DNA of 35,273 nucleotides from an uncultured Spirochaetales bacterium. Lineage in GTDB: Bacteria; Spirochaetota; Spirochaetia; Sphaerochaetales; Sphaerochaetaceae. This document shows, piece after piece, positions 4,005-22,651 of the stretch. The notes under the pieces are model-generated. The model was not told the origin of the DNA. It saw nothing but the letters and a program-made list of their open reading frames with translations, and made no database searches. The position numbers and the translations under genes were made by a program. The stretch is from the NCBI GenBank assembly GCA_902797395.1, contig CADBSO010000008.1, positions 1 through 35,273 on the forward strand. Direction: 5' to 3'. Each line of letters opens with the position of its first letter. Position 1 is the stretch's first letter.

Positions 4005-6914
4005 TCATGCCCCGCTTCCAGCGGCAGCAGTTCTTCCAGATTTCTCAAGCATCTTCCTGATGCGCAATGCCGCAGCAGACGTAAGCCTTCCGGGCTCGCA
4101 TTGCCATTTCCAGTTCCCATCCATAGTTCCCGGCACGTTTATCCTGCACGAATCATCCAAAAACAGCAAGTCCTGAAGCTGGAATATCACCCATGGGGAA
4201 TCCGATTCGCAAAGCTTGTTCATCACTTCCTCTGACTTCGCCTTGTCGCCTTCGCACCACGACAAAAGAGTGCTGTTGTCATGGGTTCCGGAATAAAATA
4301 TCCTATTGGAACAGTCCTCGCCTTTCATGTTCTCCATGTCTGAACTCGAGAACTGCCAAACGTTCATGCCCGGTATTCCTGTAAGCTTAAGAAGATTGAA
4401 CACCGCATCATCCAGACAGCCAAGATCCTCAGCTATGAACTTCATATCCGGAAACCTGTTTCTGACTTTCCTGAAGAAATCAAGCCCCGGTCCGGTGAGC
4501 CATTTTCCATCCTTGGGCTTTTTGCCCTCAGGTATCGCATAGTATTCGGAGAAACTTCTGAAGTGATCAAGCCTTATATAATCAAAGAGCTTGCTGCACA
4601 TCTCTATCCTTCGCATCCACCAATCATATCCGTCCTCGCACATCCTCGCCCAGTCATAAAGCGGATTCCCCCAATCCTGGCCGTCCTGCTGGAAATAATC
4701 TGGCGGAACCCCGGCATGAACCCTCATATTGCCTTTGGCATCAAGTTGGAAGCATTCCGGATTGCGCTTCACATCCGCGCCTTTCGGATCAACATATATG
4801 GGAATATCCCCGATTATGGAAATGCCCTTGGAATGAGCGTATTCACGAAGCTCCTTCCACTGCGCAAGAAACAGATCATCAGATGATGCGGCCCTGCCAC
4901 GACGCGCCTCGCTGCGGTTTATGAAGCTCTCATTGAACTTGAACACATCCGGCGAAAGATACGGCGAATCACCCATCCCAACAGGATGTATCGGCAAAAC
5001 CTGCCAAAGGGTGATGCCGCACGCGCTCATCCAGTCCACAAAATCCTTTGCGGGCTTGCCGAGTTTGCCTCCGGGTATTGAAAAAATCGGAGCTATCACT
5101 CCCGCTTTTCTCTTGGATCCGAACGGAAGCTCTATTTGCGGCGGAAGCCTCTTAAGAAGCACGAGAGCAGTGTACATGGGCGGTATGGAAATCGTTACGC
5201 TTTCCCCATTACCCGCAAAAACACGCGACTTGACAAGATCCAGCGCATACCTGCAACTCGTCTTGAACTTCAATTCCTTGGTATGGAATTCATTGCGGTT
5301 GGCGATTACCAATATCCTCTCGTCATTGCTTCTTCTCTCATACGCGAATATGTCCGGATCATCATTGAAAACCGCTTTGTATTCGCTGTTGTCCCTAAGA
5401 ACCATGTGATCATTGTATATCACTTTAAGCATTCTCAGTGAGTAATGCATATCATAATCAGCAGTCGGCCCCCAGTTCATGCAAGCGCGGTTCTCCGGAT
5501 CGGCATTTCCACGCATCGCAAGCTCATCGCCATAATATACAGCCGGAACCCCAGGAAGGGTATAGGTAAGAGCAAACAGCATCTTCACCTTCTCGCGCGA
5601 ACCATTCACCTCATTGATAAGCCTTCTGGTGTCGTGCGTTCCAAGAAGATTGAACAAGGAATAGAATATTTCCCTAGGATAATTCTCATTAAGCGACATG
5701 AAGCGCCTTTGGAAATCATTTCCGCTTATCCTGCCCATGACGAAATCCAACGCCATATTCCTGAGCGGATAATTCATCACGCTATCAAGCTCGTCGCCCA
5801 TCAGATAGCGGCGCTTCTCTCCATAGCTCTCCTTGTTTGAAGCGTCCTCCCAGACCTCGCCTATAAGAACCTTGTCCTCTCCGCACCTTTTCACAGCTTT
5901 GCGCACAAGCCTTATGAACTCGTCCGGAAGCTCATCCGCGACATCAAGCCTGAAACCCGAAGCGCCGGCTTTCAGCCAATGCTCGATAACCCCGCCCGCC
6001 CCGCATATGTATTTGACATACGACGAATTAAGCTCGTCGACTTCAGGAAGGTCCTTAACCCCCCACCAAGCCTTATAGCCTATATCGGAATCATCGAACT
6101 TGAACCAATCGCGATAAGGAGATCCTTCCTTGAAATATATGCTGTTTACCCCAACATGGCTGAAAACGCCATCAAGTATGATCCTTATTCCATTCTCTTT
6201 CGCTTCCTTGCAAAGAAGAACAAAATCCTCCTCAGTACCCAAAAGCGGATCTATCCTCATGAAATCGGATGTGTCATACCTATGATTGGAAACCGCCTTG
6301 AATATCGGATTCAAATACAAAATCGTGATTCCAAGGCTTTTCAGATACAGAAGATTCTCCCGTATGCCGTTGAGGCTTCCGCCATAAAAATCCCAACGCA
6401 CCACATCACCGGCGCTGTTCTTCTCGTATTTCGGAGGCACGGACCAATCGGTCAGCTCGATTTCAAGCTTCTTCGCCCTGTCAGCGGATGCGACATCCTT
6501 GGCGAACCTATCGGGAAAAATCTGATAAAGAATGCCCTGGCTGAACCACTGCGGAACCTTCTGCTCCTTATAGACTGTTATCTGGTAATCCTTCGGGATA
6601 TCGCTCGTCAGAATTCCAGGACCGCCAAGCTTCTCATGGTTATTGCCATAGTAGCAAACGCTCCCATCCTCCCCGGTCAGAACAAAATGATACCAAAGCA
6701 ACCTGCCGGTTTCATATGTCCTGAAATTCAAATAGAATCCATGATCCGTCCTACTCATCGGAAGAATCGACTCGCCGTCGACGTCATCCCAAATCCTCAC
6801 CTGACAGGACTCAACCCCTTGTGTTTCTATAAACAAGGAGACCTGAGACGAGACCTTCACAGCCCCGAACGGCTTCTTATGCTTCTCGTCCCAGGAATCG
6901 AAATAAGCCTTCAC
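4005..6914 (-). CDS. GH13 alpha-glycosidase fused to 4-alpha-glucanotransferase (MalQ)
   Basis: A 969-residue two-enzyme fusion for remodelling alpha-1,4-glucans and maltooligosaccharides. Residues about 1-115 look like the N-terminal beta-domain seen in neopullulanase-type GH13 enzymes. Residues about 120-590 are the GH13 barrel and C-terminal sheet: DGVFSH at 248-253, nucleophile Asp324 in FRLDVADE, acid/base Glu353 in IGEVWED, transition-state Asp428 in GTHD. Residues about 600-957 are a GH77 amylomaltase: Asp783 in IRLDHFR, Glu829 in IAEDLG, Asp879 in GTHDN, plus GDIPIYV and GVPPDYF. The GH77 part is roughly 140 residues shorter than a usual 500-residue MalQ. The segment normally present between the DSPY/FxxN region and the QW..L motif is missing. 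Translation starts at GTG 6914 (AGAGG 9 nt upstream), overlapping the glgA stop by 4 nt. Whether the GH13 half debranches or cleaves alpha-1,4 bonds is not decided by the sequence. Confidence 0.92.
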   Translation of the reverse strand: MKAYFDSWDEKHKKPFGAVKVSSQVSLFIETQGVESCQVRIWDDVDGESILPMSRTDHGFYLNFRTYETGRLLWYHFVLTGEDGSVCYYGNNHEKLGGPGILTSDIPKDYQITVYKEQKVPQWFSQGILYQIFPDRFAKDVASADRAKKLEIELTDWSVPPKYEKNSAGDVVRWDFYGGSLNGIRENLLYLKSLGITILYLNPIFKAVSNHRYDTSDFMRIDPLLGTEEDFVLLCKEAKENGIRIILDGVFSHVGVNSIYFKEGSPYRDWFKFDDSDIGYKAWWGVKDLPEVDELNSSYVKYICGAGGVIEHWLKAGASGFRLDVADELPDEFIRLVRKAVKRCGEDKVLIGEVWEDASNKESYGEKRRYLMGDELDSVMNYPLRNMALDFVMGRISGNDFQRRFMSLNENYPREIFYSLFNLLGTHDTRRLINEVNGSREKVKMLFALTYTLPGVPAVYYGDELAMRGNADPENRACMNWGPTADYDMHYSLRMLKVIYNDHMVLRDNSEYKAVFNDDPDIFAYERRSNDERILVIANRNEFHTKELKFKTSCRYALDLVKSRVFAGNGESVTISIPPMYTALVLLKRLPPQIELPFGSKRKAGVIAPIFSIPGGKLGKPAKDFVDWMSACGITLWQVLPIHPVGMGDSPYLSPDVFKFNESFINRSEARRGRAASSDDLFLAQWKELREYAHSKGISIIGDIPIYVDPKGADVKRNPECFQLDAKGNMRVHAGVPPDYFQQDGQDWGNPLYDWARMCEDGYDWWMRRIEMCSKLFDYIRLDHFRSFSEYYAIPEGKKPKDGKWLTGPGLDFFRKVRNRFPDMKFIAEDLGCLDDAVFNLLKLTGIPGMNVWQFSSSDMENMKGEDCSNRIFYSGTHDNSTLLSWCEGDKAKSEEVMNKLCESDSPWVIFQLQDLLFLDDSCRINVPGTMDGNWKWQCEPGRLTSAAALRIRKMLEKSGRTAAAGSGA

Positions 6915-8497
6915 TTCAACAAGCCTCTATAAAGTTCGCGATATTGCTCGGCAGGACCTCTCCATGAGAAATCACGAGTCATGCATTCCCTCTGCATCTT
7001 CCTCCAGTCAGCCTTCTCGTTGTAAAATACCGTAAGTGCATTGTCAATCGCTCCCATAAGCTCATCCGCGCTGTAGTTCGCAAATGAGAATCCGGTGCCG
7101 CTCTTGTCATACTTGTTATACGGCTGGACCGTATCCTTCAAACCGCCAGTCTCCCTGACGATCGGAAGCGTCCCGTATTGCATCGCTATCATCTGCGAAA
7201 GGCCGCAAGGCTCGAACCTGGAAGGCATGAGAACAGCATCCGCGCCGGCATATATCCTATGCGAAATCCCCTCGTCAAAATACAACCTGGCTTGGAACTT
7301 CTCCGGATTCTTCCACGTGTAGTACGCAAATGCGTTCTCATATTTCTTATCACCAGAGCCAAGAACTATGAGCTGCATGGCCCTCTTCTCCATTTCCGCG
7401 AGCTTATTTATGACCAGATCAAGCCCCTTCTGCTCCGTAAGCCTGCATATTATCGCAAACACCGGAATATTGGGATCAACCTTCAAATACAGTTCCTTCT
7501 GTATCGCCAGCTTATCCTCAACCTTCTTGTCGATGCTGTTCACATCGTATTGCACGGGAATGAACTTATCAACCTGGGGGTTAAACACCCTCCAGTCTAT
7601 TCCATTGACTATTCCGCTCAAAACCGATGCCCTCTTTCTGAAAACAGCATCCTGATTCTCACCGAAATACGGCGTCTTTATCTCTTCGGAATATGTAGGG
7701 CTGACTGTGGTTATGCGATCCGAATATGAAATCGCACCAAGCAAATAGTTGACCGCCTCCCTCTTGCCGTATTTGTTGTATACGGACATCTGCGGCTCCG
7801 CAGGCGTTCCGGACAGTCCGAGAATATCCGACATAATGGCATCATCATACTGGCCCTGGAATTTCAGATTATGGATCGTGAACACGGTCTTGATCCTATT
7901 GAAATCCGGAAGGTGATTGTAATGCTCCCTCAGAAAGACAGTCGACATCGCCGTATGCCAGTCATTGCAATGAAGTATATCGACTCTCCAGCCCATGTAC
8001 TCTATCGCCTCAAGAAGCGCCTTCGAGAAATATGCGATTCTCTCTCCATCATCGAATTCCCCGTATGCCTTGTTCCTATGAAAATAATACTCGTTGTCAA
8101 GGAAATAATAGGTAAGACCCTTGTATTTCATTTCAAAAAGGCCGCAATAAACGCTTCTCCAGCCAAGCGGAACCGTAAAACTGGTCTTGAATACCATCTT
8201 CTCCTGATATTCCTGCGGAATCAGACTGAGCTTAGGCAGAATCACCCTCACCTCGAAATCGCTTCCATTGAGAAAATACGGAAGCGATCCGGCGACCTCG
8301 CCAAGGCCGCCGCTTTTGAAAAACGGAACCGCCTCAAACGAAGCATACAGGACATGATGCGCTGCCGCTTCGGATTCAACCGCACCACCCGATTCCGGAA
8401 GATGAATGTACTTCACGATATGCTCCTCCTTCTTGAAGCTCTCATCGAATATGGATTTCTTGTCGCTGGAGTCCGAATTGTTCATGTTATTGCTCAT
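6911..8497 (-). CDS. glgA: Glycogen synthase (ADP-glucose type, GT5)
   Basis: Transfers glucose from ADP-glucose to the non-reducing end of alpha-1,4-glucan. The 528-residue protein has the GT5 hallmark KSGGL at residues 61-65 (ADP-glucose binding, residue 15 in E. coli GlgA). It also has the family stretches HCNDWHT, TIHNLKFQGQY and SGIVNGIDW, and the C-terminal donor-site RFEPCGL (427-433) with the conserved Glu429. It carries an extra hydrophilic, acidic N-terminus of about 46 residues before the catalytic fold. Start ATG 8497 has AGGG (8506-8509) 8 nt upstream and overlaps the glgD stop as ATGA; a second in-frame ATG four codons in is less well placed. It is flanked by glgD and the glycosidase/MalQ fusion, so its role in glycogen synthesis is secure. 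Confidence 0.97.
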   Translation of the reverse strand: MSNNMNNSDSSDKKSIFDESFKKEEHIVKYIHLPESGGAVESEAAAHHVLYASFEAVPFFKSGGLGEVAGSLPYFLNGSDFEVRVILPKLSLIPQEYQEKMVFKTSFTVPLGWRSVYCGLFEMKYKGLTYYFLDNEYYFHRNKAYGEFDDGERIAYFSKALLEAIEYMGWRVDILHCNDWHTAMSTVFLREHYNHLPDFNRIKTVFTIHNLKFQGQYDDAIMSDILGLSGTPAEPQMSVYNKYGKREAVNYLLGAISYSDRITTVSPTYSEEIKTPYFGENQDAVFRKRASVLSGIVNGIDWRVFNPQVDKFIPVQYDVNSIDKKVEDKLAIQKELYLKVDPNIPVFAIICRLTEQKGLDLVINKLAEMEKRAMQLIVLGSGDKKYENAFAYYTWKNPEKFQARLYFDEGISHRIYAGADAVLMPSRFEPCGLSQMIAMQYGTLPIVRETGGLKDTVQPYNKYDKSGTGFSFANYSADELMGAIDNALTVFYNEKADWRKMQRECMTRDFSWRGPAEQYRELYRGLLK

Positions 8498-9609
8498 ATG
8501 TTTGTCCCTTTTTCAACTATCGTAGGCGAAGATGATGAGCCTTTAAGCGATTTCCCTTCTCCTATTGTAACATACTTATCGAGAATCACATCGCTCAAAA
8601 CAGCATTCCTGCCGATCTCCCCATGCTGCATTATTATGGAGTTTCTGACTACGCTGCCCTCAGCTATATGAACCGATCTGAATATTATGCTGTTTTCGAC
8701 CTCACCGCGTATGACGCACCCTGACGCGACTATTGAATTCCTCACCTTGGCATTGCCGATATACAAACACGGGACCTCATCCTGAACCTTCGTCATTATC
8801 GGACGCTCATCACAGAAAAGATTCGTCTGGGATATGGATTCGTCCATAAGACCCATGTTCACATTATAGTAATCGTAGACCGAATCTATCCTTTCCGCAT
8901 ATTCGTTGTACTCGCAAGCATTTATGGTGAGCTTTGGGAAATTCTCAATGAGCAAGTCAATGAAATCGGTATTCTTAAACACGCTGTATGCGTTAAGAAT
9001 CTCCATGAGGCAAGTGCGGTTCACAACAAAAATGCCAAGGAACACATTATTAGTCTTGTCATACGAATCAAGGAACTCCTTGATGCGGCCATCAGATCCG
9101 ACGTTGAAGTTTATGGTATTCACAACTTCGCTTCTGATCTTCCCCTTCTTATAGAGCAAGGTGGCCTGGCATCCGCTCTTAACATGATTCTCCAGAATCT
9201 TGTTCATATCGGCGTTCATAACGCAAGAGGTATCGGCAAATACGACATAGTCGGTATTATAGTTCCTGAAGATTCGCGAATTTCGGACAAGATCTCCAAC
9301 AAGGAACCTGGCCTGAGGGTTCTTGGTTCCGAACACCGTTCCGGGCATTATATAAAGGCCGCCCTCGCGCTTGTCGAGATTCCATGATCTGCCGCTCTCA
9401 AGATGATCTATAAGCGAACGATAGTAATACGGCGCAATCACACCCACCGTGGTAATGCCGGCGTCAACCATGCTGGAAAGCGGAAAATCTATCATTCTGT
9501 ATCTTGCGCCGAACGGAAGGGTGGCGAGAGACCTTCTCGCAAGAAGAGATCCGAAAGTCCCGTTCGGCTCATACATCGCCGAAATCAAACCGATTGCATT
9601 GTATTTCAT
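8494..9609 (-). CDS. glgD: GlgD, regulatory-type subunit of glucose-1-phosphate adenylyltransferase
   Basis: Paralogue of GlgC that forms a mixed ADP-glucose pyrophosphorylase with it, as known in Firmicutes. The 371-residue product keeps the nucleotidyltransferase layout ([15 protein letters not shown], the WNLDKREGG stretch, a C-terminal left-handed beta-helix with hexapeptide-like repeats such as [19 protein letters not shown]). It lacks the GGxGTRL nucleotide loop found in GlgC; the equivalent N-terminal position reads [12 protein letters not shown]. This fits a non-catalytic or weakly catalytic modulating subunit. A GGAGG lies 6 nt before the ATG at 9609, which overlaps the glgC stop by 4 nt. 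The adjacent glgC and immediate downstream glgA support coupled expression of the ADP-glucose route. Confidence 0.95.
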
Positions 9610-10733
9610 TTTTTGCCTCCCTCAGAGAAAATCATCACTTCCTCGGAACTTCCGAAAACAGTACCGCTCGGAACCACGCTGTCCTCATTGACTATGGAAT
9701 GGATCAGCTTGCTGTTCTTGCCAACCGAGCAATCGGGAAGAAGAATGGAATCCACTATTTCGGCGCCTTCCTCAACTCTTGCTCCGCATCCTATCACCGA
9801 ATTCACGACTTTTCCCTTCACTATGGCGCCATTGCACACCACGGATCTCGAAACAGAAGCCTTGCTTCCGATTATATGCGCCGGATAAAGCGATGATGCG
9901 CCCGAACGTATCTTGAAATTATCGTTGTAGAGATCGAACTCCGGGTTCTCCTTCAATATATCGAAATGCGCCTCATAATAGCTGTCAACGGTTCCGATAT
10001 CCTTCCAATAACCGCGGAACGGATAAGCGAACACCTGCGACTTGCTCGCAAGCAGACCCGGGATTATGTTCTTTCCGAAATCATGCTCCGATTTCGGGTC
10101 CTCGTGATCCGCAAGCAACGCCTTCTCCAAGGTCTTCCATGTGAATATGTAAATGCCCATCGAAGCCAGATTGCTCTTCGGCTGGGCAGGCTTTTCAGCG
10201 AATTCGGTTATCCTCCTATCGCCATCAATGCTCATGATCCCGAACCTGCTCGCCTCCGCCATCGGAACTTCCATGACCGAAACCGTCAGGTCAGCCTTCT
10301 TCTCCTTGTGGAAATCGAGCATCTTGCTGTAATTCATTTTGTAAAGATGATCGCCCGACAGAATCACGATGTATTCCGGAGAATAGGAATTCACAAAGTC
10401 GATATTATGGTATATGGCATCAGCAGTCCCCTCATACCACGCTCCGCCATTCTGAGTGGCATATGGAGGAAGTATGTGCACGCCGCCATCCGACTTGTCG
10501 AGATCCCATGCTTCGCCCGAACCTATGTACCTATTGAGCACCATCGGCCGGTATTGAATCAAAACCCCAACCGTATCAATGCCCGAGTTCACACAATTGG
10601 ACAAAGAGAAATCAATGATCCTGTACTTGCCGAAGAAGCTGACGGCAGGTTTGGCTATCTCATTCGTCAATGCTTTAAGCCTAGTACCCTGTCCGCCTGC
10701 AAGAAGCATGGCAATGCACTCCTTTTTTTTCAT
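9606..10733 (-). CDS. glgC: Glucose-1-phosphate adenylyltransferase, catalytic subunit
   Basis: Makes ADP-glucose and pyrophosphate from ATP and glucose 1-phosphate, the committed step of bacterial glycogen synthesis. The 375-residue product has the nucleotide loop GGQGTRL at residues 13-19, the [15 protein letters not shown] segment, [11 protein letters not shown], the metal-binding [16 protein letters not shown] and the GYWKDIGT sugar-phosphate motif. These are followed by a beta-helix C-terminal domain. Start ATG 10733 is set by a strong GGAGG (10741-10745) at 7-nt spacing. It lies 49 nt after glgP, with a small GC hairpin in that gap, and overlaps glgD. The usual length of this shorter (Firmicute-like) class is 370-390 residues. 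Confidence 0.97.
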
Positions 10734-15234: not shown

Positions 15235-16320
15235 TCATTCGCCCAACGGACGCCAAACCCTATCCATTATCCTCCCGGCATCGCTCTCCGTAACAATCAG
15301 CCCTATCCTGACATAATCATTGGCTATGGCTCTGAGCTCGCCCTCTGTCATGATATTGGAATACATTCCGAACGACATGAGCGCATTAAGCTCTATGTTC
15401 TTTTCCCTGCTTCCGCTATTAAGCCCCTCTTTGAGGAGGAAATCAGTCGCTTCTTCCGGATTCTCTCTCATCCAATCCAATGCATTCCTAATCGCGCGCG
15501 CCATCTTGCCGGCGGTAATAGGATTTTCCTTCACAAAAGTCCCATTCATCGTTATAGCGCAGCATATCTGATTCGTGCTCATTCCATCTTTCGAATTGAC
15601 TTTCCTAAGCCTTCCTTCACGAACCATGTCATACACGAACGATTCGCCCAAAATGGCGCAATCAACATCCCCTCTCTCCATGGCGGGAACAGAAGCGGAA
15701 TTCTCGATGACTTTTATTTCCACATCATGCAACGGGTCTATGCCATAAGCATCCAAAAGCCGAGCCGTAATGTTGAAATCACTCGCGCCGCGCCCATTCG
15801 GGCATGATATCCTCTTGCCTTTCAAATCCTCAATGTATTTGATCGGACTATTTGCAGGAACAACAAGCGTCTTGCATCCGGAAAGCCTATGGGCGCCCCC
15901 AACAAATACCAAATCCGTCCCGTTCACCGCCGGCACAAGTTGCTTTGAGATATGACCAATGGCAACATCAGCCTTGCCAAGCCCAAGCGCCTCGACATCG
16001 CTTTTGCCCTTGAATCCCTCTACCTTAAGACCTTCTTTCGCATAAAAGCCCTTCTTATCAGCAACCACAACGCCGGCAGTGCATCCGTCACTGATAAAAT
16101 ACCTGAGCGTATCATTATACCGCGGCTCTTTTTTCCAAGTCTCCAATTCCTCCTCCGCATTCGCGAACTTCAAGACGGATGACGCCGCAGGCGATACCGA
16201 TCCTGATTGGCTTCCTTGCGAACCTGACTGCATTTTCTTCGCGCATGAGAAGAGAAAAACGAAAAATGTGAAAGCCACCGCGCAGACAACAGCGCTGCGC
16301 ATGAATCTGTTTGATACCAT
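15235..16320 (-). CDS. NitT/TauT-type ABC transporter substrate-binding lipoprotein
   Basis: Extracytoplasmic binding protein for a small compound, of the NMT1/SsuA-like class (nitrate, sulfonate, bicarbonate and thiamine-precursor importers). The 361-residue product has a signal peptide ending in LFSC with Cys26 as the lipid-anchored residue, then a Ser/Gly-rich linker. The periplasmic-binding fold follows: the VVADKKGFYAKEGLKVE start typical of this class, DVAIGHISKQL, IEDLKGKRISCPNGRG, ERGDVDCAILGESF. The start is ATG 16320 (GGAG at 16329-16332, 8 nt away) rather than the TTG at 16326. It belongs with the permease and ATPase upstream but is separated from them by a 228-nt repeat-bearing gap. 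The ligand cannot be named; it lacks an obvious match to any single substrate class. Confidence 0.85.
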   Translation of the reverse strand: MVSNRFMRSAVVCAVAFTFFVFLFSCAKKMQSGSQGSQSGSVSPAASSVLKFANAEEELETWKKEPRYNDTLRYFISDGCTAGVVVADKKGFYAKEGLKVEGFKGKSDVEALGLGKADVAIGHISKQLVPAVNGTDLVFVGGAHRLSGCKTLVVPANSPIKYIEDLKGKRISCPNGRGASDFNITARLLDAYGIDPLHDVEIKVIENSASVPAMERGDVDCAILGESFVYDMVREGRLRKVNSKDGMSTNQICCAITMNGTFVKENPITAGKMARAIRNALDWMRENPEEATDFLLKEGLNSGSREKNIELNALMSFGMYSNIMTEGELRAIANDYVRIGLIVTESDAGRIMDRVWRPLGE

Positions 16321-16345
16321 AATCAAATCTCCTTATCTGATCATC

Positions 16346-16417
16346 TAAGAGGTTTTTTCAAAACTCATTTCAAAATGATGCGAAATCCATTTTAAACCAG
16401 GACATTTTCCAAGAAAA
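16346..16417. repeat. Dispersed intergenic repeat, copy A
   Basis: These 72 nt align without gaps to 35110-35181. The first 39 nt are identical, and the remaining 33 differ at 11 positions, all transitions. The unit contains GAGGTTTTTTCAAAA and CATTTCAAAATG, both able to fold as small hairpins. It lies between the importer ATPase gene and the binding-protein gene, inside what should be one operon. Confidence 0.85.
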
Positions 16418-16424
16418 CATCTTT

Positions 16425-16538
16425 AAGGGCGCTTCTAAAAACCTCAGAGTGCGATTTCGCCAATGTCTTTCAGGTCTGAAAACCGCCTCTGAAACCCACA
16501 GGCGCTTTTTGGACAGCAAGTTTTTTAGAAGCGCCCTT
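16425..16538. repeat. 17-bp perfect inverted repeat with 80-nt loop
   Basis: AAGGGCGCTTCTAAAAA at 16425-16441 is exactly complementary to 16522-16538. The 80-nt interior holds further short palindromes, such as CTTTCAGGTCTGAAA near 16477. It lies directly beside repeat copy A and ends 10 nt from the ATPase stop, so the pair looks like one composite palindromic element. It could act as an mRNA stabiliser or partial terminator between ATPase and binding protein. Function is inferred. Confidence 0.8.
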
Positions 16539-16548
16539 GAGGCGTTCC

Positions 16549-17310
16549 TCAGGAACCATTCCCGGACAATCCGTTCAAAATCTCATTCCTGTATGCAACA
16601 AACGCATCGCTATCCCTGCGTCTTCTATATGGGATGTCAATCGGAATAATCCTCTTCACCCGGCCCGGATTCGGCCGCATGAGAATCACTTTCGTGCTCA
16701 TATACACAGCCTCATCAACATCATGCGTAACCATTATGGCCAGCGAACCGCTTCCGCTCCACATGTCCAGAATCTCATCCTGCATGCTCATCCTGGTGAT
16801 GGCATCCAATGCGGAAAGAGGCTCATCAAGAAGAAGAATTTTCGGATTGCATATCAATGTCCTCGCCAAAGCAACACGCTGCCTCATTCCTCCGGAAAGC
16901 GCAGACGGATAGGAATTAGCAAACTTCTCGAGACCTATCTTCCTGACATACTCATCCACCTTCGCCTTGTTTTCCCTCGCCCTTCCCGACATTTTGAATG
17001 AAAAACCTATGTTCTGCGCAACAGTCAAATACGGAAAAAGCGAATATTCCTGAAAGACCATCCCGCGTTCCTTCGACGGACCTTTTACAACCTGCGAATC
17101 CACGGACACCAATCCAGCTGTAGGATTCACAAGACCGGCTATCATCCTCAATATTGTTGATTTCCCGCATCCTGAGCGTCCGACTATGGATACGAACTCG
17201 CCATCATGACACGAAAAGCTGACGTTTTCCACCGCACTGATCCTATCGCCTTTTCCATGCGGGGAATCAAAGCTCTTGCTCACATCATTCAAAACAAGCT
17301 CAGTTGCCAT
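16549..17310 (-). CDS. NitT/TauT-type ABC transporter ATP-binding protein
   Basis: Cytoplasmic ATPase powering the importer (SsuB/TauB/NrtD-like). The 253-residue product has Walker A GRSGCGKST (44-52), the Q-loop VFQEYSLFPYLTV, the ABC signature LSGGMRQRVALAR (from 138), Walker B ILLLDEP (158-164) and the switch histidine in MVTHDVDEA. LFPYLTV and DEPLSALD are typical of this subfamily. Start ATG 17310 has a GAGGTGG ribosome site and overlaps the permease stop by 11 nt, so the two are probably translationally coupled. It is followed by the palindromic repeat block, after which comes the binding-protein gene. Confidence 0.93.
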   Translation of the reverse strand: MATELVLNDVSKSFDSPHGKGDRISAVENVSFSCHDGEFVSIVGRSGCGKSTILRMIAGLVNPTAGLVSVDSQVVKGPSKERGMVFQEYSLFPYLTVAQNIGFSFKMSGRARENKAKVDEYVRKIGLEKFANSYPSALSGGMRQRVALARTLICNPKILLLDEPLSALDAITRMSMQDEILDMWSGSGSLAIMVTHDVDEAVYMSTKVILMRPNPGRVKRIIPIDIPYRRRRDSDAFVAYRNEILNGLSGNGS

Positions 17311-18241
17311 TTTCCCACCTCAGAAAATGCTTTTTGCATTTTTTCAGCGTAAAATTGACCAGATTGAACAGCACGCAAATCGTTATGATCGCCACATACA
17401 TCCTATTGAACATAGCCCATGCCTTCGCCCATTCGATATACCAGCCCAAACCAGCCTCAACCCCAATCATCTCGGCTATTATCAGCGTTATGCATGCAGA
17501 AGTCATGCCGGATGAAAGACCTTGGAATATGCTCGGAAGGGATGAGGGAATCACAACTCTGAAAACTATCTGGAGTTCACTCGCCCCAAGTATGCGCGCC
17601 GAGTCCAAATGCTCCTTTTTCACATTCATCACGCCTATCAGCGTCGATAAGGACACGTTATACCATACCCCTAACGCAATGATGAATACCGACCCTGAAA
17701 AAAGCGTTTTCGCCAATATCATCGAAAGAGGAATCCATGTGGCCGGCGGAATCGGCCCCAAAACATTCAGAACCGGCTCGATCCAATATCTTACGCTTTT
17801 CGAATAACCCGCAACCACCCCAGTGGCAACGCCGGCAAGCGCTCCCACAACATAGCTGACCAATAGAAGACGCAAGGAAAAAAGAGTGCTTTTCAGCAAC
17901 ATAGGCCAATCCGCAACGGCTGAATTTATTATGTCATTAAACCACGGTATGAAAGGATACGTCAGCCGCCCCGTCTTCAGAGTAAGGACATCGAATAAGG
18001 CCAGAAAAACGTAGACAGCGCAAAATATCGGCGCTCTGTACGACAACCTGTTAAAAAGCCTCAATCCTTTGTCCTTTCTCAGAAATGAAAACAAGGCAAA
18101 TGCCGAATATGCGACAATCCCTGCCGTAAGAACAATAAAATAACGCTCCGGAAAAGCATTTTCCCTAACATTCGGCAGCAAGAAATATTCAATAGACGCC
18201 AAGGCATAGCCAAGCAAAGGCAAGAAAACCCTAATCATCAC
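17300..18241 (-). CDS. NitT/TauT-type ABC transporter permease
   Basis: Membrane subunit of the importer. The 313-residue product has a C-terminal BPD_transp_1 domain of about 200 residues with several membrane helices. Its EAA coupling loop (HLDSARILGASELQIVFRVVIP) contacts the ATPase. The N-terminal 100 residues add about three further hydrophobic helices beyond the usual SsuC/TauC permease of about 250 residues, with short polar loops (LRKDKGLRLFNR). The gene begins at ATG 18241, overlapping the reductase stop by 4 nt. It overlaps the ATPase gene by 11 nt at its other end. The tight coupling to the reductase gene is the main clue to function. Confidence 0.9.
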   Translation of the reverse strand: MMIRVFLPLLGYALASIEYFLLPNVRENAFPERYFIVLTAGIVAYSAFALFSFLRKDKGLRLFNRLSYRAPIFCAVYVFLALFDVLTLKTGRLTYPFIPWFNDIINSAVADWPMLLKSTLFSLRLLLVSYVVGALAGVATGVVAGYSKSVRYWIEPVLNVLGPIPPATWIPLSMILAKTLFSGSVFIIALGVWYNVSLSTLIGVMNVKKEHLDSARILGASELQIVFRVVIPSSLPSIFQGLSSGMTSACITLIIAEMIGVEAGLGWYIEWAKAWAMFNRMYVAIITICVLFNLVNFTLKKCKKHFLRWENGN

Positions 18242-19392
18242 AGCATCTCCATAAAAGCCTCGATTCTCGTACGAAGCTGCTCCGCGTCGGATTTGGAATA
18301 GTCGGTCTCCACGCTAAGGCACGGCCTGCCCGCCTCCTTGCATAAACGCGAAACGAGCGAATCCTCGATGAGATACGGGGTACAAGCGTGCAACGAAATA
18401 TCAATCACACCGTCAACCTTGAACTCGCTTATCATATCACGAAGGTTTCCCATCCTTCCGGAATTCGGCGTCATGACAGCGCAACCTATTTTCAGGTAGC
18501 GTTCCGCTATGGCGCGAACAGGATCCTCCGCTGCCTCATCCACCAGATTCAAACAGGCTTTGACACCAGCGCAATTCTCAAATGCCACAACCACACCGCC
18601 TGAACGCTCAACCGCGCCTACGGTCTTATCCAAAACACCCCCTATCGGGCATCCGGTAACCAGAATCCTTTTCGCCTCCAAGGGCACCGGAGAGCCTTTC
18701 TCCTTATACTCAGCAGCCAGCTTCTCACACAGACCTCTTATTTTTTCAATTCTCTCTTCCCCGTTGAACAAAAAGCCGGTTGCATCAATTGTCGAATATA
18801 TTTCCTTTCCAAAACTGACAGCCGGTACGCTCTTATTCAATTCCAAAAGACGGCGCTTCTCCGTTCTCTCCGCATTCCTCATACGTATGGCCTGCCTCAA
18901 GCCCTCATCGGTTATCATGCAATGAAATTCCGATTCCAGGTAATCCTTAAACCTTATCAGCTCCTTATGCCACATATCCAGGGCATATGGCGCATCCCCT
19001 TGCGGCAGATGCAGAATGTATGTCTTTTTGTAATCGGATACAAGCTCATACATCTTCTTTTTACCATCGCAAGTGGTCTCGCCCACTATCAAGTCCGCGA
19101 AAAAAGCATACGGACATTTTTCAGAAGCAATGAACCCGAAACTCGACTTGATAAGAGGGCAAAGATTCTTTGGAAGATGCTTTTCACCTTCCGGTACGGT
19201 TTCCTCGCTCATGCCGCATAAGCTTACCGGCACAAACCCAGCCGCATCCAGCATCTCAAGCGGTGTGAAAGTACAGAATACGCCGGCTATTCTGCCGCCG
19301 TTCTCCTTCAACTCCATCACTTTTAAAAATCCGTTCCTTCTAGTTTCCGAATAATCGAGAAAACCTGTGGGAAGTTTTTGGTCACCTGCCAT
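18238..19392 (-). CDS. Double-cubane-cluster reductase, 2-hydroxyacyl-CoA dehydratase D-component family
   Basis: Cytoplasmic iron-sulfur protein of the HgdB/BcrB/DCCP superfamily, in which an ATP-dependent partner supplies very low-potential electrons. The 384-residue product has the family cysteines in typical surroundings: Cys40 in GVFCTFTPLEML, Cys78 in NLCPLIKSS, Cys108 in GETTCDGKKKMYE, Cys248 in VTGCPIGG, Cys274 in FENCAGVKAC and Cys337 in HACTPYLIED. The single-subunit form and these motifs resemble the double-cubane-cluster protein of Carboxydothermus, known to reduce small molecules. They fit less well with the two-subunit dehydratases. Start is ATG 19392 with AAGGGG upstream; the TTG at 19407 is rejected. 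It is the first gene of an operon with the importer. No HgdC-like activator ATPase is encoded nearby. The substrate is unknown. Confidence 0.8.
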   Translation of the reverse strand: MAGDQKLPTGFLDYSETRRNGFLKVMELKENGGRIAGVFCTFTPLEMLDAAGFVPVSLCGMSEETVPEGEKHLPKNLCPLIKSSFGFIASEKCPYAFFADLIVGETTCDGKKKMYELVSDYKKTYILHLPQGDAPYALDMWHKELIRFKDYLESEFHCMITDEGLRQAIRMRNAERTEKRRLLELNKSVPAVSFGKEIYSTIDATGFLFNGEERIEKIRGLCEKLAAEYKEKGSPVPLEAKRILVTGCPIGGVLDKTVGAVERSGGVVVAFENCAGVKACLNLVDEAAEDPVRAIAERYLKIGCAVMTPNSGRMGNLRDMISEFKVDGVIDISLHACTPYLIEDSLVSRLCKEAGRPCLSVETDYSKSDAEQLRTRIEAFMEML

Positions 19393-19455
19393 CCCCAACC
19401 CCTTCAATCACACATGACTGCCATGCCGGAGCAGACCTTCCGGCTATACGAAAGT

Positions 19456-19479
19456 CATTATGTTTTCAAAAGCATAATG
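19456..19479 (-). promoter_or_regulatory. Inverted repeat over the predicted start site (operator candidate)
   Basis: CATTATG at 19456-19462 and CATAATG at 19473-19479 form 7-bp perfect arms 10 nt apart, five bases downstream of the -10 box. The predicted transcription start (about 19477) falls inside the right arm. Such a site is well placed for a repressor controlling the reductase-importer operon. No regulator gene is adjacent. Confidence 0.6.
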
Positions 19480-19483
19480 GCAA

Positions 19484-19513
19484 ATTATAGCAATAGTCCG
19501 ATATTTTTTTCAA
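19484..19513 (-). promoter_or_regulatory. Sigma70-type promoter of the reductase-importer operon
   Basis: On the minus strand TTGAAA (19508-19513) and a perfect TATAAT (19484-19489) are 18 bp apart. This gives a leader of about 85 nt before the ATG at 19392. The promoter lies about 40 nt beyond the terminator of the preceding operon. Confidence 0.78.
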
Positions 19514-19552
19514 GTGCGCTCCCGCAAATGACATATCGGTAAAAACAATAAG

Positions 19553-19682: not shown

Positions 19683-21788
19683 TCAGCGGGGCTTACCCGT
19701 ACCGGGACCAGTCGGCCTCTGACCATCCGCAGGTCCGGAGGTTCCCGCTCCGCTTTGAGTATGAACATAACCGCTGGCAAACGAAATGCCATTGATCGCA
19801 GGTGATCCGCCGCTGCACGATTCCGGCATAACCGTATAAATGCCACGGAATACGCTTCCTCCGGAAACAGTAGCCCCCGATACGACCGAATATGTTTCAT
19901 CAGCCGTCAACCCTGGCGATGAAAAAATGACAACCAGATTCGAACCCGAATTCAAAGGCACATTATAAGCGAACCTGACGTTACCAGACGAATCCTTTAC
20001 GACAAGCGCCTTGTTCCGGTCTCCGATCGATGTGCCGGACATGATGACAACACCTTGTCCGCACTTGGCTGCAGTCGGTCTGGAATAATTCCCGGTCCCT
20101 ATGCCGATAAGCGTTCCTCCGGTTATGATGAAATCATTATTATCGCAATCGAAAGCGCATTCCGGTGTTACCGTAGTAAGAGCGACCACTACACCACCGC
20201 TTATCTTTATGGTACCGTTTGAATCTATGCAATCATTCTTGCTGCTATAGGCATAAACATATCCGTCATGAATGTCTATGGTTCCGGTATTGAGGCTGAC
20301 ATTAAGACAATCATCAGTAGTATTGCATTCGATCCTGCCGCCATAAATGTATAGACCGGATTTGCCCTCTATGCCCTCCGGGGAAAGCGAAAGATCGGTT
20401 ATGGTCTCGGTCACGCCATCCGCATTCAAAACATCAGCTGCTCTTGTGGATTCATATGGAGTCCCTGTTGTCCTTATCGTTATCGCCCCGCCGGTTATCA
20501 GAACATGCGGATCAGGAGAATAGCCTTCAGCAGCACCCGTCTCCGTCTGGTCCTCCGATGCCACCCATTTAGCTGTAATGGCCTTGGAAACCGTTGTTAT
20601 ATTCAAGCTGCCGCCCTTAATCACTATGAATCCAGCCTTGTCGCCTGTCGCATCCTCATCATAGCCCTCAACGACTATTCCCCTGCTTTCATTATCCGTT
20701 CTGTCTCCGGCGCCGCTTACGGTTATGGTTCCGTTGTCCATTATAAAGCCATTAGCCGCATGAAATCCGTTCCGGCCAGTTGATGTTATGCTTATTACAG
20801 CATTATCGCATATCCTGATGAACCCCTTGCTTGAAACAATGCCATGCTTATAGCCCTCGGTCACATTCAGCGTTCCGGTACCTGTCACATACATATCCCC
20901 TTTCGTGAAAACAGTCCCTTTGCTGCTGTCGCCCAAAGCCCAAGTTCGGGTCTCCTCCAAATCCTCGCCCTCATCCTCGGCTGCCTGTCGCGCCGCCGCA
21001 AGATCCGAAGCGCCCAACGAAGAGTCATAGAATTTGACTCCATTAGCCTCGCTATACCCCGTACCGAATGATCTGCCATCAGCAACGTTGTTAACGGTTC
21101 CATCCTTGATTTCCAAGTAGACAGGAGCCTTTCCGTCATTCATTATGCAAGGATAATTTCCACTGCTTATCGTTGCTCCATCAAGAACGATCCGAACAGA
21201 CGCATCCTTTTTCACCTTTACGCACAATCCCTTTTCAGCGGTGCCTTTCAACACTATCGAAAGCTTCCTGTTGTTATATGTGTATTTGGGAGCATCCGGT
21301 TCATCGCTAACAGCCTTGCCATCGCCATAGAACCACAACTGGCCATCATTCTCTCCGGCCGTTCCAGTATAATATGCGGCCAGCTTTCCATCAAAAAGCG
21401 AAAGGGCGTTGGCTTTCACCGGTATCGACTGCTCCTCACCATCCCCCGCTTTGACTTTCATTGCGCTAAGATCCACAGTCAGAACATCATCCGCAACAAA
21501 ATCCGCGACTTCAGCATACGAATAATGCCCCGAAGTCCCATCGTAACCGGCATAACCGCCTATAGCCTCAAAAGCCAATGCGCCGGAAACGGAAGTGGCC
21601 TGTCCGCCGCCCGAAGGCGTCACCGAAGGGACGCTATCATCCGTGCTTCCATTGTCATCGCTTTGCGAAACAGCGCCTCCAGCCACCGTATTCGGATCAG
21701 CACCGTTTTCCTGCGGATTGCAGGCAAAACAGCATAAAAGCGAAAAAACCAACAACAGAATTCCCCACACGCCATAAAACCTTTTCAT
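19683..21788 (-). CDS. Cthe_2159-like carbohydrate-binding beta-helix lipoprotein
   Basis: Large exported protein, 701 residues. A signal peptide ends in CFAC (probable lipid-anchored Cys23; the lipobox is loose, as is common in spirochaetes). A Ser/Thr/Gly/Asp-rich linker follows to about residue 65. The rest is a string of beta-helix turns with recurring patterns (DGATISSGNYPCI, GTGTLNVTEGYKHGI, GFHAANGFIMDNGTITVSG, GLYIYGGRIECNTTDDCLNVS, KNDCIDSNGTIKISGG). This layout matches the carbohydrate-binding family first described in a Clostridium thermocellum protein, which binds cellulose or pectic polymers. The C-terminal about 25 residues are Gly/Pro-rich. ATG 21788 (GGAG 8 nt upstream) is preferred over the ATG at 21794. 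It is the last gene of the cdaA operon; its link to c-di-AMP or tRNA modification is not evident. Confidence 0.82.
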   Translation of the reverse strand: MKRFYGVWGILLLVFSLLCCFACNPQENGADPNTVAGGAVSQSDDNGSTDDSVPSVTPSGGGQATSVSGALAFEAIGGYAGYDGTSGHYSYAEVADFVADDVLTVDLSAMKVKAGDGEEQSIPVKANALSLFDGKLAAYYTGTAGENDGQLWFYGDGKAVSDEPDAPKYTYNNRKLSIVLKGTAEKGLCVKVKKDASVRIVLDGATISSGNYPCIMNDGKAPVYLEIKDGTVNNVADGRSFGTGYSEANGVKFYDSSLGASDLAAARQAAEDEGEDLEETRTWALGDSSKGTVFTKGDMYVTGTGTLNVTEGYKHGIVSSKGFIRICDNAVISITSTGRNGFHAANGFIMDNGTITVSGAGDRTDNESRGIVVEGYDEDATGDKAGFIVIKGGSLNITTVSKAITAKWVASEDQTETGAAEGYSPDPHVLITGGAITIRTTGTPYESTRAADVLNADGVTETITDLSLSPEGIEGKSGLYIYGGRIECNTTDDCLNVSLNTGTIDIHDGYVYAYSSKNDCIDSNGTIKISGGVVVALTTVTPECAFDCDNNDFIITGGTLIGIGTGNYSRPTAAKCGQGVVIMSGTSIGDRNKALVVKDSSGNVRFAYNVPLNSGSNLVVIFSSPGLTADETYSVVSGATVSGGSVFRGIYTVMPESCSGGSPAINGISFASGYVHTQSGAGTSGPADGQRPTGPGTGKPR

Positions 21789-21793
21789 AATCA

Positions 21794-22651
21794 TTACTCC
21801 TTCATGGCAGATCTGAATTTCAAATACTCTTCCTCATCATATATCACCCGCTTGAGATAAAGGCCTTGCGCCGGAGCAATGAAGTCCGCCTTGATGCCGA
21901 GTTCAGGCCTCATCAATCCGGAAAACATGGAAACCGCATCCTTGCGATCATGCTTGAGCGCCAAACTCACGCTCATGCCGACAATAGCCCTGACCATATG
22001 ATAAAGGAAGGCATTGCCCGTTATCGTGAACACAAGGCTATCACCGCGCCTCTCAAACCGCGATTTCAAAACATCTCTTTTCTGCGAATGCCCATCATTC
22101 GATTTGGTGAAATCAAATGCTCTGAAGTCCACATCCTCACCTATTAGAAACTTCTGCATCTCATTCAATGTGGAAATATCAGGCAGATTTCTGAGACGCC
22201 ATGCCCTGCCGTTATCGAAAGGCGTCCAATGGACATCATCCTTCAAAACATATTCGTATTCCCTCAGCAGCGTTGAAAACCGGGCATGAAAAGCATCAAA
22301 CCTTTCCGTCACTCCATTGATTCTGATCGTTTCGGGAAGATTCGCATTCAAAGCGCGCCTGAGAGTCTCCTCATCCATCCTCAAACAGGATGAATCAAAG
22401 TGAGCGCATTGGCCAAGCGCATGCACGCCGCTGTCCGTTCTTCCTGATCCGTATGCGTTCGAGCGCTCTCCGGAAATCTTGAATATCGCCTTTTCAAGAA
22501 AACTCTGAACGCTCCTATCCTCAACCGATTCGCTGTCCTGCCGCTGCCACCCGTAATGCGCGGGACCATAATATGAAATAACCAGCTGGAATCTTCTTGC
22601 AGGCGGAATCGGCGGCGATAATACCGCGCTCCTCTTCCAGTTCTCCCTCAT
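21794..22651 (-). CDS. truA: tRNA pseudouridine synthase A
   Basis: Converts uridines 38-40 of the tRNA anticodon stem to pseudouridine. The 285-residue product has the conserved YYGPAHYGWQRQ start of the fold and GSGRTDSGVHALGQ with catalytic Asp73. Further family blocks are ALNANLPETIRI, FHARFSTLLREYEYVL and NAFLYHMVRAIVG. About 20 extra residues precede the usual start of the family fold. ATG 22651 overlaps the cdaR stop by 4 nt; the gene ends in TAA, overlapping the region before the next lipoprotein gene. Housekeeping function, clear assignment. Confidence 0.96.
   Translation of the reverse strand: MRENWKRSAVLSPPIPPARRFQLVISYYGPAHYGWQRQDSESVEDRSVQSFLEKAIFKISGERSNAYGSGRTDSGVHALGQCAHFDSSCLRMDEETLRRALNANLPETIRINGVTERFDAFHARFSTLLREYEYVLKDDVHWTPFDNGRAWRLRNLPDISTLNEMQKFLIGEDVDFRAFDFTKSNDGHSQKRDVLKSRFERRGDSLVFTITGNAFLYHMVRAIVGMSVSLALKHDRKDAVSMFSGLMRPELGIKADFIAPAQGLYLKRVIYDEEEYLKFRSAMKE

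Follow-up and report, generated by a model that had tools for sequence, protein, structure and literature searches.

The genome of an uncultured Spirochaetales bacterium encodes a double-cubane-cluster reductase (DCCP) next to an ATP-binding cassette (ABC) importer of the NitT/TauT type, in the order DCCP, permease, ATPase, binding lipoprotein. The four genes lie on the minus strand of a stretch of DNA of 35,273 nucleotides (nt; contig CADBSO010000008.1 of assembly GCA_902797395.1), which we refer to as "the window". It is contig C8 of a draft genome of 2.0 Mb that is 87.5% complete. Here, we propose that this operon is an uptake-and-reduction module for a small molecule containing sulfur or selenium, a reading that draws on gene neighborhoods and to which we assign a probability of roughly 0.4. 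DCCP, NitT importers, importers of the selenocysteine-assisted organometallic (SAO) systems, and nitrogenase-like reductases that cleave C-S bonds are already known. The family of four-cysteine binding proteins described below is a new observation of this analysis, as is the sulfur/selenium lead; a preliminary description of the window gave no substrate. DCCP is regarded as the archetype of its family of enzymes, and it is unclear whether the reactions reported for it matter physiologically (PMC11971306). An importer wired to a DCCP offers a handle, in that the ligand of the binding protein may reveal the substrate of the reductase. A literature search found no account of this importer with a DCCP, the main description of SAO systems lying outside that search.

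The reductase and the importer

The window reductase passes the NCBIfam double_cubane model NF040772 (473.6 bits; cut-off, 350), in agreement with its first description as a single-subunit, double-cubane-type enzyme. It scores 355.8 bits against PF06050 and 263.7 bits against the solved DCCP of Carboxydothermus hydrogenoformans (6eno/7yyl), aligning with the latter over nearly its whole length. Eight of the 10 cysteines of 6eno/7yyl in the aligned stretch are present, and Cys 45, 83, 113, 279, 309, and 342 of the window protein align with 6eno cysteines throughout. In a comparison with BzdN, five of these six coincide with cysteines, and the sixth lies nearby. DCCP and BzdN each hold an [8Fe-9S] cluster, that of BzdN being ligated by six thiolates (PMC11971306); judged from aligned positions, the window protein has the six cysteines expected for such a cluster. 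The Carboxydothermus system (DCCP/DCCP-R) shares with the window a single-subunit PF06050 protein, the cluster cysteine positions, and a PF01869 activator in the genome. The window DCCP differs in three respects: its start lies ~30 residues further on, an importer is joined to it, and its likely activator is encoded on another contig, beside a second DCCP that is closer to the Carboxydothermus protein.

Identity with 2-hydroxyacyl-CoA dehydratases or benzoyl-CoA reductases was considered and rejected, with 78 bits against HadC (cut-off, 700) and 74 bits against BzdN (cut-off, 454). The protein does share family PF06050 with such enzymes, and an HgdAB- or BcrABCD-like CoA-ester dehydratase or aryl-CoA reductase could be imagined alongside an importer of aromatic compounds or amino acids. 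We consider this very improbable: besides the low scores, the reductase is single-subunit, with no second PF06050 gene beside it that could encode a partner subunit, and the operon lacks genes for a CoA ligase or a CoA transferase.

The binding protein has a predicted fold of the SsuA/TauA class. Its AlphaFold2 (AF2) model (pLDDT 83.9) has an SsuA/TauA/Thi5-type fold and superimposes on SsuA (2x26) with Z 25.9 and a root-mean-square deviation of 2.9 over 278 residues. Its scores fall below the cut-offs of the curated sequence models, with 116 bits against SsuA_fam (cut-off, 163.5) and 34 bits against the taurine model (cut-off, 304). The distinguishing feature is a set of four cysteines besides the lipid anchor: Cys82, Cys151, Cys255, and Cys256, numbered from TTG 16326. 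Among the 61 family members, Cys82 and Cys151 each occur in 59, Cys255 and Cys256 each in 60, and all four together in 58; the same two members lack both Cys82 and Cys151, and an unreadable X stands at the site in the only member lacking the CC pair. Exactly four cysteines follow the lipobox in 40 of the 61. Beyond these cysteines, near invariance is confined to a few positions: the lipid anchor, a proline, and glycines. The alignment places the CC pair at the CCCFC segment of Thi5, which is rich in cysteine, and Cys82 falls near the expected place of MqnD Cys11 and DszB Cys27, as judged from aligned ranges only. The four cysteines may line the ligand cleft.

The importer is related to that of SAO systems (SaoX/SaoA/SaoP; PMC13188914), which has a cysteine-rich binding protein and sometimes sits beside a DCCP. 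SaoA and SaoP are the best NCBIfam models for the ATPase (231 bits; cut-off, 360) and the permease (92 bits; cut-off, 295), and the binding protein scores 59.5 bits against SaoX (cut-off, 300). In SaoX, the CC pair is retained and another cysteine lies close to the position of Cys82, and DCCPs also adjoin bona fide SaoX-type operons, as at locus L061 (SaoX, 507 bits; loci used for comparison are numbered with the prefix L). These likenesses would suit a simplified SAO relative in which the cysteine-rich protein imports an organometal, soft metal, or metalloid that the DCCP reduces or detoxifies. We regard this as unlikely. All three scores are below the equivalog cut-offs, so membership in SAO was rejected; the operon consists of four uninterrupted open reading frames (ORFs) with no selenocysteine codon and no other Sao genes; and relatives of the importer sit with genes for sulfur assimilation and C-S reductases. 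As a separate observation, the DCCP within the SaoX-type operon of L061 (3171-5917) is split into ORFs of 192 and 182 residues, reflecting a frameshift or an assembly error.

Recurrence of the pair

We took the 80 nearest DCCP loci from reference genomes and scored importer genes within 7 kb of each. At six loci, the permease, ATPase, and lipoprotein all have orthologues (L010, L011, L020, L025, L031, and L054), with identities to the window proteins of 44-55% for the permease, 50-55% for the ATPase, and 37-53% for the lipoprotein. The number expected by chance is ~0.04, given the rarity of the importer, and would be 0.56 if every genome had one importer (P = 3e-5). These six were found through their DCCP; their frequency is therefore biased upward. 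Gene order varies among them: the DCCP is first, last, or divergent, or is separated from the importer by an activator, LysR, or second DCCP gene. Some linked operons add genes for an activator, YedF, a selenium LysR, or GrdA.

On the permease tree, the window falls in a clade of eight, six of which are DCCP-linked (SH-aLRT 97), while the Parvimonas-type loci L054 and L140 form a separate, second DCCP-linked group. On the DCCP tree, the members linked to an importer are dispersed, and well-supported branches require at least six changes; the pairing therefore appears to have been remade or kept several times. Because the two trees disagree, the pair has probably been reassembled more than once. 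The pairing is obligate in neither direction. Of 299 genomes from the phylum of L020, 19 have a member of the permease family, and DCCP is present in 12 of those 19 as against 77 of the other 280 (p = 0.003). Two near-identical loci, L166 and L167, have a DCCP ~10 kb from the importer within one sulfur-gene island.

The DCCPs nearest to that of the window, at ~60% identity, are those of L009 and L017. Both adjoin a PatB C-S lyase (assigned in L017 by shared cluster) and another NitT-type permease. In L009 (1821-4888), the DCCP lies between the PatB lyase and YedF, an order that hints at cleavage of organosulfur or organoselenium compounds. A binding-protein fragment at this locus retains the CC motif.

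Sulfur and selenium genes and a proposed role

Eight deeper members of the importer family adjoin nitrogenase-like genes (L117, L118, L121, L122, L123, L124, L126, and L138). Many of these eight, and many of seven other members, also adjoin genes for cysteine synthase (CysK), homocysteine synthase (MetY), cystathionine synthase (CGS), or MetA. The D subunit at L126 scores 412 bits against the structure of methylthio-alkane reductase (Mar; 9FMG), and that at L117 is more divergent (161 bits). Mar performs ATP-driven reductive C-S cleavage (PMC12552129), and the four-cysteine importers at the eight loci likely supply the C-S reductases encoded beside them. Nitrogenase-like H, D, and K genes occur only beside relatives of the importer, with none among the four genes of the window operon. 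In Rhodobacter capsulatus, growth on isethionate sulfur requires both the nitrogenase-like IsrBHDK and an SsuABC-type importer (PMC11423573), making this an experimentally supported case of an importer and an ATP-driven reductase working in C-S cleavage. The window operon likewise combines a NitT/TauT-class importer with a predicted ATP-driven, low-potential reductase. In the Isr system, the importer has been shown to be essential, the substrate is known, and the reductase is nitrogenase-like rather than a DCCP. We view the window operon as a putative counterpart of Isr-SsuABC with a reductase that is not nitrogenase-like, and as related to the SAO importers.

The importer family occurs with two reductases that are unrelated but both hold large Fe-S clusters (PMC11971306, PMC12552129), which could also mean that it brings in a building block for those clusters (iron, sulfur, or a metal-thiolate) rather than a substrate, with a metal held by the four cysteines. 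We think this quite unlikely, in view of the many family members that stand alone and of neighbors (CysK, MetY, CGS, and MetA) that belong to sulfur amino acid synthesis and not to Fe-S assembly.

DCCP has been provisionally linked to selenium metabolism before (PMC10418091), so the selenium part of our analysis is a confirmation with numbers. A selD gene scores above its cut-off in 39 of 40 chosen DCCP genomes. Across the 299 genomes, selD is present in 86 of 89 with DCCP and in 112 of 210 without (p = 1.6e-15, uncorrected for kinship). In the window's own family, 34 of 37 genomes have selD, and the profile is therefore uninformative there. Genes near DCCPs encode a selenium LysR and YedF (both above cut-off), GrdA, and Se/S carriers.

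The preliminary description held that no activator is encoded nearby and that one encoded elsewhere serves the reductase. Indeed, the window contains no PF01869 gene, and a search of the genome found a single match, at C112:5396-6142 (158.7 bits). This activator resembles HgdC and the DCCP reductase and sits between a second DCCP, which scores 431 bits against the solved Carboxydothermus protein, and a PF11823 Se/S carrier, followed by a YedF-like gene. Since it is the only copy found in the genome, it probably serves both DCCPs, although a second activator could lie in the missing eighth. Another contig, C1, carries a cluster of yedE-like, Se/S-carrier-like, and selD genes (Table 1). The YedF-like call on C112 and the yedE-like and Se/S-carrier-like calls on C1 rest on sequence inspection.

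We infer the ligand and the reaction from this gene company, and likewise that what the importer brings in is the substrate of the reductase. The lipoprotein would capture a soft, sulfur- or selenium-bearing ligand, perhaps via its four conserved cysteines, and the permease and ATPase would import it. The activator encoded on C112 would use ATP to load a homodimeric DCCP with low-potential electrons, and the DCCP would then reductively cleave the ligand at a C-S or C-Se bond, or reduce an oxidized form of sulfur or selenium. Other parts of the genome encode the Se/S carrier, YedF, and SelD, which would receive the released sulfide or selenide. More broadly, and tentatively, at least this branch of DCCPs may serve physiologically to cleave imported organosulfur or organoselenium compounds by ATP-driven reduction, in which case the nitrogenase-like Mar/Isr enzymes and the unrelated DCCP would each have joined the same four-cysteine importer family. 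Through the shared importer family, DCCP is connected with selenium genes and with nitrogenase-like C-S reductases, which narrows the substrate question to a few assays.

Several observations weigh against a dedicated uptake-and-reduction module. First, the preliminary description proposed checking whether the importer genes stay beside this reductase clade and took unrelated neighbors in most genomes as grounds for abandoning the link. Conservation beyond chance and in varied order is seen at the six linked loci, but the link is weakened in part: this importer is missing from 74 of the 80 DCCP loci, and most importer orthologues are without a DCCP; in the family that includes Parvimonas, the majority occur singly or with housekeeping genes around them. 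Second, among the 19 permease-family genomes in the phylum of L020, only L020 itself has a DCCP within ~7 kb, and of six close importer relatives found through the permease (L116, L136, L137, L139, L140, and L141), only L140 has an adjacent DCCP, the short contig of L139 limiting its neighbor check. Third, selD tracks DCCP and not the importer (15 of 19 importer genomes versus 183 of 280; p = 0.32). Fourth, selA was not found in the window's own genome (87.5% complete), though selD is present. Lastly, the four cysteines could be structural disulfides.

Some of these points would suit an importer that takes up sulfur or another nutrient beside a DCCP with a separate selenium task, the two being adjacent through a shared regime of anaerobic sulfur/selenium expression. 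Most importers and most DCCPs do occur apart, and selD follows only the latter; on the other hand, the DCCP and permease genes overlap in the window, and the pair recurs on both trees. We judge such a division of tasks to be somewhat unlikely.

Four-cysteine importers also occur at L161-L164, in the family of Parvimonas, where shared neighbor families recur in the four loci. At L161, the neighbors look like cytochrome c nitrite reductase and ResB, on sequence inspection only.

Layout and control of the operon

The four-gene operon of reductase and NitT/TauT importer lies where the preliminary description placed it (Table 1). The 4-nt overlap reported there between the DCCP and permease genes applies to a permease start at GTG 18241; with a start at ATG 18238, the overlap is 1 nt. 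The DCCP has 389 residues from TTG 19407 and 384 from ATG 19392, the latter being the more probable start. For the binding protein, ATG 16320, downstream of AAGGAG, is likely to be used in preference to TTG 16326. The description also had a single promoter serving the whole operon. A sigma-70-like site is present upstream, and it likely serves all four genes, with some reserve for the binding-protein gene, which a 222-nt gap containing a strong hairpin separates from the ATPase gene.

Table 1. Features of the operon and of related gene clusters elsewhere in the same genome (window coordinates unless a contig is given)
Feature	Positions	Strand	Basis or remarks
DCCP, double-cubane-cluster reductase	18238-19407	minus	NF040772, PF06050, match to 6eno/7yyl
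ABC permease, NitT/TauT type, with N-terminal extension	17300-18241	minus	PF00528; 44-53% identity with six DCCP-linked permeases
ABC transporter ATPase	16549-17310	minus	PF00005
Substrate-binding lipoprotein	15235-16326	minus	PF09084; lipobox Cys28 (numbering from TTG 16326)
Sigma-70-like promoter, TTGAAA-18-TATAAT, TG before -10 (extended -10)	19484-19513	minus	11/12 matches; consensus match only
Hairpin (perfect arms of 17 bp) in the gap between the ATPase and binding-protein genes	16425-16538	minus	z -5.6; not followed by a T tail
Gene run comprising a second DCCP, an activator, an Se/S carrier, and a YedF-like gene	contig C112 (L091), 4119-7065		
Cluster of yedE-like, Se/S-carrier-like, and selD genes	contig C1 (L090), 7317-10063		

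The hairpin has no second copy within the window, and no riboswitch was found when the window and eight related loci were scanned against Rfam. The G+C content of the operon equals that of its flanks and therefore gives no compositional sign of transfer. Upstream of the operon, with nothing to indicate that it is part of it, lies a large lipoprotein-like gene (19683-21794) with a Cthe_2159 carbohydrate-binding domain.

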